NCBI GenBank assembly: GCA_016870915.1
Contig: VFZY01000002.1
Location: forward strand, 1-64,000
DNA from: Acidobacteriota bacterium
GTDB taxonomy: Bacteria > Acidobacteriota > Terriglobia > Bryobacterales > Bryobacteraceae
Direction of reading: 5' to 3'
Length of the DNA stretch: 64,000 bases
Shown: positions 497 through 6,287 of the stretch, one piece after another
How positions within the stretch are numbered: position 1 is the first letter of the stretch
Layout: each line of letters starts with the position of its first letter
Program-made: the position numbers and the translations under genes
Notes under the pieces: model-generated
Seen by the model: the letters and a program-made list of their open reading frames with translations, nothing else
Databases searched by the model: none
Told to the model about the DNA's origin: nothing

Positions 497-1741
497 CTAC
501 CTCTTGAGGTTGATCGTCTCCTGGCTGATCTCATCCACGGTCGTCACCACGCGGGTGTTCGCCTGATAGCCGCGCTGAAACACGATCAGGTTGGTGAACT
601 CACGCGCAATGTCCACGGTCGACGATTCAATGGCGCCCCCCAGAATCGTCCCGCGGCCGCCCGAGTTCGGCACGCCGATCGCGGGCAACGCGCTCCGCGC
701 GCTCAACTGATAGTTGTTGTCGCCCACCGCCACCATCGATTCCGGGTTGCGAATCGATGCCATCGCCAACTGCCCCACCATCGTCTGCGAACCGTTGGTG
801 TACTGCGCCAGGATCGCTCCGCCATCGCCCAAACCCACCCGGATCAACTGCGCCGCGGGGGAGCCGTTCTGTGAGTTGGCCGACACCGCCGAGGGTTGCG
901 AATACTGCGTCAGGCGCGGGGTCGTCCGGTTGAACAGGTTCCAGGTCACCGTCTGTGACGCCGCTCCGTTGTTGTAACCCGAGATCGTGATCGCCGGCAT
1001 GGGGTCCGTGAGCGTGGGCGCGGTCATCCGGCCACTGGAGTCGAAGGAAATCGAGCCCGTCACTGGAGCCACCGGCGAGCTTACATCCGAGTTCGGAATC
1101 GAAATCGAGTAGTCCCACTGGTTCGCCGTCGAAGACTTCGTGAAGTTCACGCTCACCACGTGCGATTGCCCCAGCGAGTCGAAGATTTCAATCGATGTCG
1201 AGAACTGGTCCGGGGGCGGCCCCGCGGTCGCCGCCGCGTTCAGGTTCAGGTCAACGCTCAGATCCGTTGTCGCCACCGGCGGCCGCAGCGAACCCACCGG
1301 CACCACCACATCGGAAACCGGCAGGTTGGTGTTCACAACCCCTCCCTGCTCCGACCATCCGAGAACCCTGTGTCCCTTGGCCGTCAACAGATTGCCGGCC
1401 TTGTCCACAACCAACTGCCCACCGCGGGTGTACAGCGTCGCGCCAGCCGGGCTTTTCACCACCAGAAAGCCGTCTCCCTGGATCGCCGCGTCCAGCGTTC
1501 CGTTTGACGCGTGAATGGCGCCCTGCGTGAACTGGCGCAGTGTCACCGGCCGGGCCACACCGAAACCCACCTGGGTTTCGCCCAGCGCCGTACCCACCGA
1601 CTGCGTCACCAGATCCGCGAACGAAATCGCGCTCGCCTTGAAGCCCGGCGTGTTCAGGTTCGCCAGATTGTTGCCCACCACATCGACGGCGGTGGAATGC
1701 GCCCCAAGGGCTGAAAGTGCGGTTGAAAACGAAGTAAACAT
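497..1741 (-). CDS. flgE: Flagellar hook protein FlgE
   Basis: FlgE polymerises into the curved hook that joins rod and filament outside the cell. The 414-residue protein begins with the conserved rod/hook N-terminal heptad region and the motif NNLANLNTPGFKASAISFADL (residues about 24-44). It has a variable D1/D2 middle and ends with the family C-terminal coiled region, EFTNLIVFQRGYQANTRVV and DEISQETINLKR. Its length is typical. It follows flgD after 30 bases on the same strand, the usual flgD-flgE order, in which the FlgD cap guides FlgE assembly. The ATG at 1741 gives the expected short hydrophobic N-terminus. Confidence 0.97.
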   Translation of the reverse strand: MFTSFSTALSALGAHSTAVDVVGNNLANLNTPGFKASAISFADLVTQSVGTALGETQVGFGVARPVTLRQFTQGAIHASNGTLDAAIQGDGFLVVKSPAGATLYTRGGQLVVDKAGNLLTAKGHRVLGWSEQGGVVNTNLPVSDVVVPVGSLRPPVATTDLSVDLNLNAAATAGPPPDQFSTSIEIFDSLGQSHVVSVNFTKSSTANQWDYSISIPNSDVSSPVAPVTGSISFDSSGRMTAPTLTDPMPAITISGYNNGAASQTVTWNLFNRTTPRLTQYSQPSAVSANSQNGSPAAQLIRVGLGDGGAILAQYTNGSQTMVGQLAMASIRNPESMVAVGDNNYQLSARSALPAIGVPNSGGRGTILGGAIESSTVDIAREFTNLIVFQRGYQANTRVVTTVDEISQETINLKR

Positions 1742-1771: not shown

Positions 1772-2107
1772 CTACGCTCCCGGACGCGGCGCCGGCGCCG
1801 CCGGCTGCTGTCCGCCCAGGCTTTTCTCGATCGACGCGAGGCTTTTTCGCATCTCGAGCATCTGTTCAACGCCCGAAAACTGCGTCAATTGGCTCACAAA
1901 CTGGATCGGATCGGCCGGTGTGAGCGGATTCTGGTTCTGAATCTGAGCCACCAGGAGCTTGAGGAACATCTCCTTGCTCTGGGCGCCGTCGCCGCCCTCG
2001 GCCCGGGCCGCCAGCTCCGGCGGATTCACCTGCTCCCCCCGCGTTACTCGCTGGTGCTGACTGAGCCAATCGGGCGGCGCGGCGGCTGCCGAAATCGTGT
2101 TTGTCAT
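1772..2107 (-). CDS. flgD: Flagellar hook capping protein FlgD (minimal form)
   Basis: FlgD caps the growing hook and is released when the hook is complete. The 111-residue product carries the conserved N-terminal capping motif FLKLLVAQIQNQNPLTPADP followed by the QFVSQLTQFSGVEQM segment (residues about 48-82). It then ends in a short Ala/Pro tail. The C-terminal FlgD Ig-like/tudor domain of the longer enterobacterial form (about 230 residues) is absent. I chose the ATG at 2107 because an AGGGAG ribosome binding site lies just upstream; the open frame extends further but into fliK. It sits five bases from fliK and ahead of flgE. Confidence 0.92.
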   Translation of the reverse strand: MTNTISAAAAPPDWLSQHQRVTRGEQVNPPELAARAEGGDGAQSKEMFLKLLVAQIQNQNPLTPADPIQFVSQLTQFSGVEQMLEMRKSLASIEKSLGGQQPAAPAPRPGA

Positions 2108-2112
2108 GTTGG

Positions 2113-3018
2113 TTATCTCCCTGCCTGCGTCGTGAAGGACTTTTCCAGTTCCTCCACCCACTGCGGCCTTCGCCGCTTATCTTCCTGATACTGCTGCTGT
2201 TGGTTGCGGGCATCCTGAGCGTCTCCGCCCCGTCCGCGCCCCCGTTCGTCGGCGAACTCGGCGTCACCCCGGGCCGCCAGCGGCGCCAGGTCAATCCCGG
2301 AGCCCGCTTCCGGGGTCCAGGCCTCAGTCCGGTACCCCACGCTCTCCAACCTCTCCACCAGGTCGCCAATCGACCTCTGCATCTCCCCCGCCAAACCCTG
2401 ATCCGGGGTCCGGACCGCCACCTGCACACGGCCGTCCCGTTCCTGCAACACCAAGTCGACGGGCTTCATCGGCGCCGCTTCCACACCCTGCACAGGCTCC
2501 GGCGCCGCGACGCGAACCGTAATCTCCCGCGCCTGCGAAGCCTGGCCGGCCGGCCGCACCTCCGCCACCTGCAGCGGCGCCTCCACCCGGGCCGCTTCCA
2601 CCCGCACCGGTTCGGGAGCCGGGGCTGCCGGCGCGGCTACCGGAGCGGCCTCGCCCACCGGAGCCACCCGGACAGCTACCGATTCAGACACCACAGGATC
2701 GGACGTTTGGGTTGGTTCCGCGGCGCGGACCGGGACCTCTTCCGCCCGGTTCCGATCCCTCCGCTCCAGCACCTGTTCCGGCGCCCTAACTGCTTGAATC
2801 CGAGGAGTTTCGCCGCTTTCAGGTTCGTTCCTCGCAAAGTCCCGGCCCGCCGCCAGCCGCACCTCCGCCTTTCGATCCCCGGCCGGACGCTCGGGGCGCA
2901 CGGCGTGCTCAACCGGCACCACCGGGGCATCCGCCGGTTCACGCACTTCCAGACGAGCCGCAAAGGCCGTTTCCGCCCCTTCCACAGGCGGCGCCGGTTG
3001 CGCTTCAATCATCGGCAT
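2113..3018 (-). CDS. fliK: FliK-like hook-length control protein, C-terminal part
   Basis: FliK measures hook length and switches export specificity. This 301-residue product is Pro/Ala/Val-rich for about 190 residues, as in FliK linkers. It then has a FliK-type C-terminal domain: MKPVDLVLQERDGRVQVAV and GEMQRSIGDLVERLESVGYR (about residues 190-245). A charged, Gln-rich tail follows. The ATG at 3018 has only a weak ribosome binding site. The frame is continuous with the upstream open frame 3031-3528 except for one TAG at 3033-3031, four codons before this ATG. The two pieces are therefore probably one gene of about 470 codons interrupted by an amber codon. Position before flgD supports the call. 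Confidence 0.75.
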   Translation of the reverse strand: MPMIEAQPAPPVEGAETAFAARLEVREPADAPVVPVEHAVRPERPAGDRKAEVRLAAGRDFARNEPESGETPRIQAVRAPEQVLERRDRNRAEEVPVRAAEPTQTSDPVVSESVAVRVAPVGEAAPVAAPAAPAPEPVRVEAARVEAPLQVAEVRPAGQASQAREITVRVAAPEPVQGVEAAPMKPVDLVLQERDGRVQVAVRTPDQGLAGEMQRSIGDLVERLESVGYRTEAWTPEAGSGIDLAPLAARGDAEFADERGRGRGGDAQDARNQQQQYQEDKRRRPQWVEELEKSFTTQAGR

Positions 3019-3030
3019 TTCCGCTGCCTG

Positions 3031-3528
3031 CTAAAGGCGTTGGGGAGCTATCGGCCGCTCCGCTCCGGGTTCCGGCGCTGGTGCGGCCACCGGAACCGGC
3101 GCCACAGCCGTCCCGTACACCGCCTCGACCCTGGGAGGTTCCTGTTTAGCAGACTCAACCGCCTCCCTGCCATCCATCTCCCGGCTTTCTACCGGCTCCG
3201 TCTCACAGCAGGAAACCGCAATCTCCAGCTCCACCGGAAGCCGCGGAAGCGGTACCGGCTGCGGCACCACCACCGGCACGGGCACCGGAACCGGCAGCGC
3301 ATTCCACGACGCTTCGCGTTCCTGCTGGCCGCCCTGCTCACGCTCCGGCTCCAGTTCCGGCTTTGGTTCCGTTTCCCTCTGTGGCCAAGCCGACGCCTCT
3401 TCCCCGATGAGAGCCCCCAGCAGCGCCGCAAAGAGTGCGTCCGGCGAGGCTTGGCCGCCGGCAGGCGCAGCGCCAAACCCGGCGGCCGGCATCCCGGCTG
3501 GGAGGCCGGAATCGAGGAACGAGATCAT
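3031..3528 (-). CDS. FliK-like protein, N-terminal part (ends at in-frame TAG)
   Basis: The 165-residue product starts MISFLDSGLPAGMPAAGFG, has an Ala/Gly-rich head with a short helical stretch (DALFAALLGALIGEEAS), then a Glu-rich and Pro/Val-rich linker. Its low-complexity end (VAPVPVAAPAPEPG) matches the composition of the next open frame, which continues in the same frame after a single TAG. I read it as the N-terminal export and ruler region of FliK. The ATG at 3528 is preferred over a TTG at 3579. If the stop is real, translation of the C-terminal part depends on reinitiation, suppression or coupling. No domain outside FliK-like low complexity is recognisable, so the assignment rests on continuity and position. 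Confidence 0.55.
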   Translation of the reverse strand: MISFLDSGLPAGMPAAGFGAAPAGGQASPDALFAALLGALIGEEASAWPQRETEPKPELEPEREQGGQQEREASWNALPVPVPVPVVVPQPVPLPRLPVELEIAVSCCETEPVESREMDGREAVESAKQEPPRVEAVYGTAVAPVPVAAPAPEPGAERPIAPQRL

Positions 3529-3671
3529 GCGGACGGCGGGAGCAGTTCGGTGGCCAATTGAGGCAGCCACGATTTTCAATCACTTAGCGGGAGCGGGTGG
3601 GGACAAGAAGTCGCCGATCCGGCCCATGCGGCAGGAAAGTGCCGTCGAAGCGCACGGCGGCATATTAGTCC

Positions 3672-3697: not shown

Positions 3698-3741
3698 GCG
3701 CAGCCGCCCGTTCGGCCACAAAAATGCACGGTGGCCTCCCA

Positions 3742-4494
3742 ATGGATCAGTTCACCATTTCGGCCGCGAGCGGCCTGCGCGCCCGCATCGAGACTCTTGA
3801 GATGCTGGCCAACAACATCGCCAACGCCAATACGGCGGGCTTCAAACTGGACCGGGAGGGTTACGGCCTCTACCGGTCGGACGACGCTTGGGCTTCCCAT
3901 GTCGAGTCGCTCCCGGAGCCCGCCACACTGCCTGTGGTGGAGCGGCATTGGACCGATTTCGGAGCCGGAGCCATCCAGACCACCGGGGCACCGTTCGACT
4001 TCGCACTTTCCGGGCGCGGTTTCTTTGTGGTGGAGGGACCGGGCGGTCCGCTTTATACAAGAAACGGCAGCTTCAACCTGTCACGCGAGGGGGACCTGGT
4101 GACCCAGGATGGCTACCGTGTCCGGGTGCTGGACGCGCAGGGCCGGCCCGTCAAGCTTGACCGGTCGCGAAGCATTGATGTGGATCGGGACGGCGCGGTG
4201 AAGGTGGGAGGCCGGAGCGTGGGCCGCATCCAGATCGCCGACTTCGACGAACCAGCGGCGCTCTCCAAGAAAGCGGGAACCTATTTTCACATGCCGGACC
4301 CGGCCCGATTGCAGCCGCGGCCCGGAAAGGCCGAAGTCTATCAGGGGCGGCTGGAGAGCTCGAACGTTTCGGCGCCGGAGACCGCGGTGCGGCTGATCAA
4401 CGTGATGCGGCATTTTGAATCGCTGACGAAGGCGCTCCAGATTCACGGCGAGATGGGCCGCCGGGTGCTGGAAGAAGTGGCCCGTCCCAGTTAA
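3742..4494 (+). CDS. flgF: Flagellar proximal rod protein FlgF
   Basis: FlgF is a proximal rod subunit that spans the periplasm below FlgG. The 250-residue product starts MDQFTISAASGLRARIETLE, followed by NNIANANTAGFKLDREGYGL, the hallmark of rod/hook proteins. It has FDFALSGRGFFVVEGPGG and LYTRNGSF in the central domain and ends with the C-terminal coil VRLINVMRHFESLTKALQIH. Its length fits FlgF, and flgG lies next downstream. I prefer the ATG at 3742. Other in-frame starts are an ATG at 3724 and a TTG at 3694, but both add a non-conserved leader. Confidence 0.93.
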   Translation: MDQFTISAASGLRARIETLEMLANNIANANTAGFKLDREGYGLYRSDDAWASHVESLPEPATLPVVERHWTDFGAGAIQTTGAPFDFALSGRGFFVVEGPGGPLYTRNGSFNLSREGDLVTQDGYRVRVLDAQGRPVKLDRSRSIDVDRDGAVKVGGRSVGRIQIADFDEPAALSKKAGTYFHMPDPARLQPRPGKAEVYQGRLESSNVSAPETAVRLINVMRHFESLTKALQIHGEMGRRVLEEVARPS

Positions 4495-4519
4495 CAAGCA
4501 ACAGCCGGCAAGACCGACA

Positions 4520-4559
4520 CGGGGCGGCCTGGTTGCCTGAACCCCCTGAGGCTGCCCCG
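4520..4559 (+). other. Stem-loop between flgF and flgG
   Basis: CGGGGCGGCC (4520-4529) pairs with GGCTGCCCCG (4550-4559) over ten positions, including one G-U pair, around a 20-base loop. No T-run follows, so it is unlikely to be a strong intrinsic terminator. It occupies the only sizeable gap in the plus-strand flagellar operon and may act as an mRNA processing or stability element. Confidence 0.4.
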
Positions 4560-4606
4560 GCCTTTGCCAGCCAGAAAAAAACGAAAGAAACGATGGTTAT
4601 TCCTTC

Positions 4607-5398
4607 ATGATCCGAGCATTATTCAGCGGCGCCAGCGGCATGAGCGCCCAACAGACCAATGTCGACAACATCGCCCACAACCTGGCCAATGCCAACACGG
4701 TGGGTTTCAAGCAGCGCCGGGCGCAGTTCCAGGATCTGCTGTATCAGAGCCTGGTGCAGCCGGGCGTGGCGGCCGGGGCTCAGACTGTGGTGCCGAGCGG
4801 CCTTCAGATCGGCCTGGGGACGCGCACGTCCTCAAACGAGATCATTTTCGTGCAGGGCAGCCCGGTGCTCACCTCGAATGCGCTGGACCTGGCGATTCAA
4901 GGCCGCGGGTTCTTCCAGATCCGGCGCGCCTCGGGTGAAACCGCCTACACCCGCGCCGGGGCGTTCCACACGGACCGCGACGGCAACGTGGTCACCTCCG
5001 ACGGCGAGCCGCTCGAACCCACCATCACCATGCCGCCCGAGGCCCAGAACGTGCATATCGCGGCCGACGGCACGGTGAGTTACTCGCTGCCGGGCCAGCC
5101 GAACGCGCAACTGGCGGGGCAGATCCAGCTTGCCAATTTCACCAATCCGGCGGGCTTGAACAGCATCGGGCGCAACCTTTATGTGCCCACCGACGCTTCG
5201 GGTGAGGCGGTCATCGGCATTCCGGGCGGCCAGGAGGGTCTGGGCAGCCTGCAGCAGGGCTACATCGAACAGTCGAATGTCAGCGTGGTGGAAGAGTTCA
5301 TCAATCTGATTGTCAGCCAGCGCGCCTATGAGGCCAATTCGAAGGTGGTTCGGGCGGCGGATGAGATGTATCAGCAGGTGAACAATGTTACCCGCTAG
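4607..5398 (+). CDS. flgG: Flagellar distal rod protein FlgG
   Basis: FlgG builds the distal rod, which passes through the P and L rings. The 263-residue product has the classic start MIRALFSGASGMSAQQTNVD, then NIAHNLANANTVGFKQRRAQFQ. It also has the central LDLAIQGRGFFQI and AYTRAGAFH segments, and the C-terminal QGYIEQSNVSVVEEFINLIV with QRAYEANSKVV. The length is standard (about 260). The ATG at 4607 follows an A/G-rich stretch. It overlaps flgA by 14 bases, showing tight operon packing. Confidence 0.97.
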   Translation: MIRALFSGASGMSAQQTNVDNIAHNLANANTVGFKQRRAQFQDLLYQSLVQPGVAAGAQTVVPSGLQIGLGTRTSSNEIIFVQGSPVLTSNALDLAIQGRGFFQIRRASGETAYTRAGAFHTDRDGNVVTSDGEPLEPTITMPPEAQNVHIAADGTVSYSLPGQPNAQLAGQIQLANFTNPAGLNSIGRNLYVPTDASGEAVIGIPGGQEGLGSLQQGYIEQSNVSVVEEFINLIVSQRAYEANSKVVRAADEMYQQVNNVTR

Positions 5399-6287
5399 CG
5401 TGCTCGCGGCGCTCCTGCTGGCTGAGTGCCTGCGCGCCCCCGGGGACCGGATACGGGCAGGCGACCTGGCGGGCGCGTTGCCGGAGTTCGCCTCCGTGCC
5501 GGCCGGGACGGTGCTTGGGTTGGCGCCGGCCGTGGGGGCGCGGCGGATCTACCAGCCCGTGGAGTTGGAAGCGCTTGGACGGCTGCATGGGGTGAACGTA
5601 TCCTCTCAAGCCGCCATCTGTGTCGAGCGCCCGTCCCGCGTGCTCACACCGGCGGATCTGGCGGCCGCGCTGCGGAGCGTTCTGGGGGAGACCAGCGCCG
5701 GGATCGAGATTCTGGATTTCAGCCGGTTTCCGGTGCCGCCGGGCGCGCTGCTGTTCCCGAAAGCCGGCGTGGTGGCGATGGTTGGCCGGCCGGGCCCGAA
5801 GGCCAGTCCGGTGCTGTGGCGCGGCCAGGTGGCGGATCCAAGCGGGGGCACGGTTTCCATCTGGGTGCGGGCGCGGATTTGGGAAATGCGGAGCGAACTC
5901 CGGCTCCGAAAGCCGGTGGGGCCCCTCCAGAAGCTGGAGCCAGACGACCTGGAAGTGGTTGAGGCCGAGCGCTTTCCCCTGGACGCGCGGGCTCTGGATG
6001 CGCCTGAGGCCGCTCTGGGCATGCGGTTGAAACGGCGGCTGGCGGCCGGCGCGGCGATCCATGCCACGGCGCTCGAAGCGGCCAAGGACGTGGAGCGCGG
6101 CGACACGGTGCAGGTGGACGTGGAAAGCGGCCGCGCGGTTCTGCGGCTATCGGCGCGGGCGGAAACGGCGGGCCGGACGGGTGAAACAGTGATGCTCAAG
6201 AACCCGGCCAACGGGCAACGATTTCAGGGGCGGGTGGCGGCGCCCGGCAAAGTTCTGATTCAGGCGGGGGCTCGTCATGGCAGCTAG
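5385..6287 (+). CDS. flgA: Flagellar P-ring assembly chaperone FlgA
   Basis: FlgA is a periplasmic chaperone for assembly of the FlgI P-ring. The 300-residue product has a short Sec-type signal (LPASVLAALLLAECLRA) and a variable N-terminal domain. Its C-terminal SAF/FlgA domain begins near residue 165 (RKPVGPLQKLEPDDLEVVEA). The closing segment ETVMLKNPANGQRFQGRV is typical of FlgA, where the final strand carries the NxxSGK-like turn. It overlaps flgG at its start and flgH by 11 bases at its end, and flgI is one gene further on. Confidence 0.87.
   Translation: MLPASVLAALLLAECLRAPGDRIRAGDLAGALPEFASVPAGTVLGLAPAVGARRIYQPVELEALGRLHGVNVSSQAAICVERPSRVLTPADLAAALRSVLGETSAGIEILDFSRFPVPPGALLFPKAGVVAMVGRPGPKASPVLWRGQVADPSGGTVSIWVRARIWEMRSELRLRKPVGPLQKLEPDDLEVVEAERFPLDARALDAPEAALGMRLKRRLAAGAAIHATALEAAKDVERGDTVQVDVESGRAVLRLSARAETAGRTGETVMLKNPANGQRFQGRVAAPGKVLIQAGARHGS

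Follow-up and report, generated by a model that had tools for sequence, protein, structure and literature searches.

FliK serves the flagellar hook as a secreted ruler and as the switch of export. In Salmonella, it consists of an N-terminal domain (residues 1-207), a linker (208-267) and a C-terminal domain (268-405), and the protein deprived of residues 2-99 gives hooks with an average length of 194.5 nm, which is much too long (PMC6972891). Null mutants of Salmonella fliK produce polyhooks, and their export fails to change over to filament substrates (PMC13344023). In the passages of the literature considered, no natural in-frame stop is described in fliK of the group to which the present genome belongs (PMC4774407, PMC13344023, PMC8904134, PMC6972891), and such a case may exist in print. 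The fliK gene analysed here is divided by an in-frame amber codon and is found in a 6.6-Mb draft genome of an uncultured bacterium, in 367 contigs, estimated to be 96.9% complete.

The window, i.e., the whole stretch of 64,000 nucleotides that was analysed, carries this fliK on its minus strand (Table 1). Translation of 2113-3528 confirms, as the first-pass annotation had proposed, that the open frames 3031-3528 and 2113-3018 are in the same frame and are parted only by the TAG at 3033-3031 and four sense codons. The earliest possible start of the 5' frame past the previous stop is TTG 3579, while the ATG that opens it is at 3528, from which 165 open codons precede the TAG. Past the TAG, the residues QAAE lead to the methionine encoded by ATG 3018, and the frame stays open for 305 codons, i.e., for 301 residues from this ATG until the terminal TAA. 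The context of the TAG contains no homopolymer and the change is of the substitution type, and the G+C contents at the three codon positions are alike on its two sides (0.81/0.55/0.72 before and 0.82/0.53/0.75 after). Opposite to fliK, positions 2101-3561 of the plus strand form an uninterrupted open frame of 486 amino acids; this frame was rejected as the true gene, since it is the minus strand that the FliK profile recognizes, and it is probably a by-product mirroring the G+C-rich codons of fliK.

Table 1. Position, strand and supporting evidence of the features in and around the interrupted fliK (window coordinates).
Feature	Position	Strand	Evidence
flgE, hook protein	497..1741	-	Pfam FlgE_D2, Flg_bbr_C and others
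flgD, probable start ATG 2107	1772..2107	-	Pfam FlgD E 1.1e-19 (frame 1772-2161); strong Shine-Dalgarno match, duplex energy -8.0
3' part of fliK, 301 aa with ATG 3018 as start, TAA 2115-2113	2113..3018	-	translation
FliK C-terminal domain (export-switch domain)	2131..2550	-	profile A1 E 1.7e-33, 117.7 bits
Middle FliK motif GAETAFAARLEVRE	2938..2979	-	score 16.0; reached by 1/3000 shuffles; not in the N part
In-frame TAG interrupting fliK	3031..3033	-	translation
5' part of fliK, 165 codons from ATG 3528	3034..3528	-	start fixed by the conserved upstream arrangement
N-terminal FliK motif DALFAALLGALIG	3403..3441	-	score 19.4; reached by 1/3000 shuffles; not in the C part
Sigma54-type -24/-12 site TGG-N9-TGC, 13 nt upstream of the fliK start codon	3542..3556	-	conserved arrangement
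flgF-type rod gene, divergent from fliK	3739..4494	+	Pfam Flg_bb_rod, LlgE_F_G_D1, Flg_bbr_C

The unity of the two frames had initially been argued from this geometry together with the Pro/Val/Ala-rich composition that both sides share. The geometry stands as described, but both it and the shared composition are weak arguments when taken alone. Among the ten other same-strand neighbour pairs of the window separated by a gap of 0-33 nt, seven share a frame, and two of them (8374/8387 and 63071/63084), which are separate genes according to Pfam, present the exact 12-nt gap. The same-frame, 12-nt geometry by itself is not above chance and, therefore, homology must decide. What is beyond chance is the homology of both fliK parts to one single gene in relatives.

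Conserved parts of FliK are indeed present on both sides of the TAG. The C-terminal domain was recognized with profile A1, made from 38 FliK C-termini with the window's own row among them, and its score falls inside the range of intact relatives. The Pfam Flg_hook profile (PF02120) reached the C part only below its threshold (E 0.032, 14.5 bits, the cut-off being 29.8 bits); no Pfam match was obtained for the N part. The first-pass annotation had likewise placed the domain in the second frame only. In a single-sequence search, FliK-like frames were retrieved in 16 other genomes. The C part used as a protein query of genome contigs gave no match. The N-terminal and middle motifs were learned from 53 relatives, leaving the window out, and were compared with shuffles of the part in which each motif lies; the middle motif (GAETAFAARLEVRE) starts 17 residues past the TAG. 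The first motif search picked up the translated sigma54-like site described below, and the N part then did no better than 206 of 2,000 shuffles. The replacement search was anchored at the conserved start codon and, since the first one had learned that translated site, the claim of a motif in the N part rests on the second design. From these matches, the TAG is seen to lie in the linker between the N-terminal and middle motifs of an otherwise complete fliK. Given the coding-type composition on both sides and a C-terminal domain scoring like those of intact relatives, there is no sign of decay.

The start of the gene is indicated by its upstream region. A TGG-N9-[ACT]GC arrangement, at 12-14 nt from an in-frame start codon, was found in 54 of 62 loci, the window counted, and in about 2-3% of the shuffled sequences (26/1240 with mononucleotide and 37/1240 with dinucleotide shuffling). 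The consensus upstream of fliK in the loci L020-L093 and in the window (3556-3528, minus strand) is TTGGC-N8-TGCAT-like, and the start codon is GTG in 49 loci with the sigma54-type arrangement. This conserved arrangement designates ATG 3528 as the start of fliK in the window; the codon is not preceded by a Shine-Dalgarno match, and rpoN is present in the genome. If transcription begins 12 nt past the G of the -12 element, the mRNA would begin only some 3 nt ahead of the start codon, making fliK a near-leaderless sigma54 gene. This sigma54-like site, conserved in relatives just before the fliK start, may be the more useful outcome of the analysis.

The comparison with homologous loci that the first-pass annotation had suggested speaks for one gene. 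Using FlgE as a query, 80 loci were collected, of which 61 with flgF and flgD entered the fliK counts; the other 19 were left aside, as no flgF or no flgD of suitable orientation and distance was located on the retrieved stretch. The window's genus is not represented among the comparison genomes and the linker is too divergent to be aligned at the TAG, and within this set one frame containing the FliK C-terminal domain was found in 60 of the 61 relatives (59 with profile A1 and one in a second round). The exception (L082) has Ns inside fliK, and the frame picked there, devoid of the C-terminal domain, was counted as a failure. For 52 of the 61, this frame has its start at the conserved upstream arrangement as well, and in all 36 relatives in which both motifs are strong, the N-terminal motif precedes the middle motif in one frame. 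An in-frame stop dividing fliK was found in none of the 61, L082 having Ns instead, and neither was a two-part fliK with a second start and conserved initiation. The continuous frame for the N-terminal region and the C-terminal domain is thus what the window lacks and the 60 relatives possess. Since the landmarks are divided across the TAG (the sigma54-like site, the start codon and the N-terminal motif precede it, the middle motif and the C-terminal domain follow), and since the relatives have one frame, we interpret the locus as a single interrupted fliK, in line with one of the options initially listed, that of one gene with a nonsense change.

On a wider scale, the C-terminal domain profile matched 193 of 237 genomes. 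Among the matches listed, frames shorter than 305 amino acids adjoin contig ends, as checked for G259, G121 and G018; for G103 and G256, this was deduced from their position alone. The fliK of L020 occupies 4032-5687. Some particular cases were observed in these loci. In L207 (genome G148), fliK appears frameshifted, with the N-terminal region and the C-terminal domain in different frames. In L067, L068, L070, L071, L074, L080 and L089, an extra frame of about 200-490 amino acids lies between fliK and flgD and overlaps the end of fliK. A record titled as a 'Bordetella parapertussis' MAG (L053) contains a Bryobacterales-type flagellar locus whose FlgE is 65% identical to that of the window, and its title looks like a mislabel.

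The genomic context of the interrupted gene is that of a flagellar locus. In the window, fliK is directly followed by flgD and flgE, an order kept in the relatives, and beyond the divergent flgF-type gene are found flgG, flgA, flgH, flgI and a FlgJ-type gene. The frames of FlhB, flagellin, FliD, FlgE, FlgF, FlgG, FlgA, FlgH, FlgI and the FlgJ-type protein have no internal stops and, as these tested frames are open, the flagellar system as a whole has not decayed. A search of the genome did not retrieve a second fliK, the next match having an E-value of only 0.68, and the idea of a compensating copy was rejected on this basis.

We give an even chance to a real and recent nonsense change, by which an accidental amber codon in the linker interrupts the single fliK; that the codon is both real and recent is what we infer. 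The intact flagellar set and the undecayed C-terminal domain are just as compatible with an error or with a two-part gene that still functions, and all the genomes compared are from outside the window's genus. The TAG could be a consensus base error or a minority variant in a probably metagenome-derived draft, the organism's own fliK being intact, a reading to which we assign a considerable probability, albeit below one half. The fragmentation of the genome into 367 contigs and its resemblance to the MAG records of its relatives (the closest being Bryobacterales/Acidobacteria MAGs) are consistent with it, as are the rest of fliK, its operon and the flagellar genes tested, all of intact appearance, and the other broken fliK of the family drafts, frameshifted in G148 and containing Ns in L082. 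Nevertheless, consensus errors are uncommon for a substitution-type change away from homopolymers, and the Pfam scans of window genes brought no other split gene to notice. In practice, a sequence error, which the first-pass annotation had named only as a refuting outcome, is an equal rival to a nonsense change, although the real change is slightly likelier.

The readings that give the TAG a function fare less well. A functional division, in which translation from the conserved start would produce the N part and re-initiation at ATG 3018 the C part, as a two-piece ruler and switch, is improbable in our view. ATG 3018 lies 12 nt past the TAG, the middle motif and C-terminal domain are undamaged in the C part, and Salmonella FliK lacking residues 2-99 still ends some hooks (PMC6972891), so that a C-terminal fragment might retain part of its activity. 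The duplex energy upstream of ATG 3018 (-3.3) is also near the median of the 48 window starts (-3.65), but 37% of the 288 internal ATGs of window genes (median -2.5) match or beat it; a start there is possible, yet the site is not distinctive. Moreover, the same 12-nt, same-frame spacing recurs at the two other junctions mentioned above, and the arrangement is present in none of the 61 relatives with flgF and flgD, so that the earlier option of two independently initiated parts finds neither a precedent in relatives nor a distinctive start signal. The stronger proposal of a naturally divided FliK, with the ruler half and the switch half separated through termination and re-initiation and hook length still under control, is compatible with the undamaged C-terminal domain and the intact other flagellar genes, and we consider it even a little less probable. 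The slightest chance goes to programmed readthrough of the amber codon, also initially listed, which would supply a regulated amount of full-length FliK. A CA-purine sequence after UAG is associated with leaky termination, and here a CAG directly follows the TAG, with the frame open for 305 codons beyond. However, a suppressor tRNA with a CTA anticodon was not found among the 46 tRNA loci of the draft genome, a set that is incomplete; stimulatory RNA structure was not found either, the 100 nt around the TAG folding like their shuffles (z 0.12, with 106 of 200 shuffles folding as well); and no relative has a stop at the same place. TAG is an ordinary terminator in the window, ending 24 of 60 selected open frames, and its reassignment as a sense codon was rejected on the same count. 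In the tRNA set of this genome (G000), tRNA-Gln with anticodon TTG was not found among the 46 loci and, therefore, the draft probably misses some tRNA genes.

Under the preferred reading of an accidental nonsense change, the amber codon would fall in the disordered linker, and translation from the conserved start would yield a fragment of 165 residues that lacks the switch domain. The loss of the C-terminal domain from the N part should act like a FliK null, so that neither hook-length control nor late-substrate switching would be expected to persist, a phenotype predicted from the fragment; the polyhooks foreseen in the first-pass annotation follow from what is known of FliK in Salmonella. 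The exception would be a little C-terminal product, arising from leaky termination or from a chance restart at ATG 3018. The TAG most likely marks an ordinary broken gene or an error at one base; an interrupted gene is an event of a known kind, and a new mechanism is not favoured. Taken by itself, one such gene in a draft genome matters little, except as a warning to annotate the two frames together as a single fliK. Were the stop, on the other hand, fixed in a species with normal hooks, nature would have provided a test of whether ruler and switch of FliK can function as separate proteins.

Compared with the known systems, this fliK resembles that of Salmonella, whose C-terminal domain belongs to PF02120, in its N-terminal region, long linker and C-terminal switch domain, and here the gene adjoins flgD and flgE. 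It differs in the TAG placed between the N-terminal and middle motifs and in its Pfam match, reached only below the cut-off. The locus also resembles those of G148 and L082, in which fliK is broken in a draft assembly while its neighbours remain, although the lesions differ, being a frameshift in G148 and Ns within the gene in L082 instead of the single in-frame stop of the window. Finally, unlike the Salmonella laboratory mutants with measured hooks, the present case is known from a draft genome sequence alone and, as in the null and deletion mutants with their polyhook or polyhook-filament phenotypes (PMC13344023, PMC6972891), a truncated FliK without its C-terminal domain would be expected to result in polyhooks and no filament.
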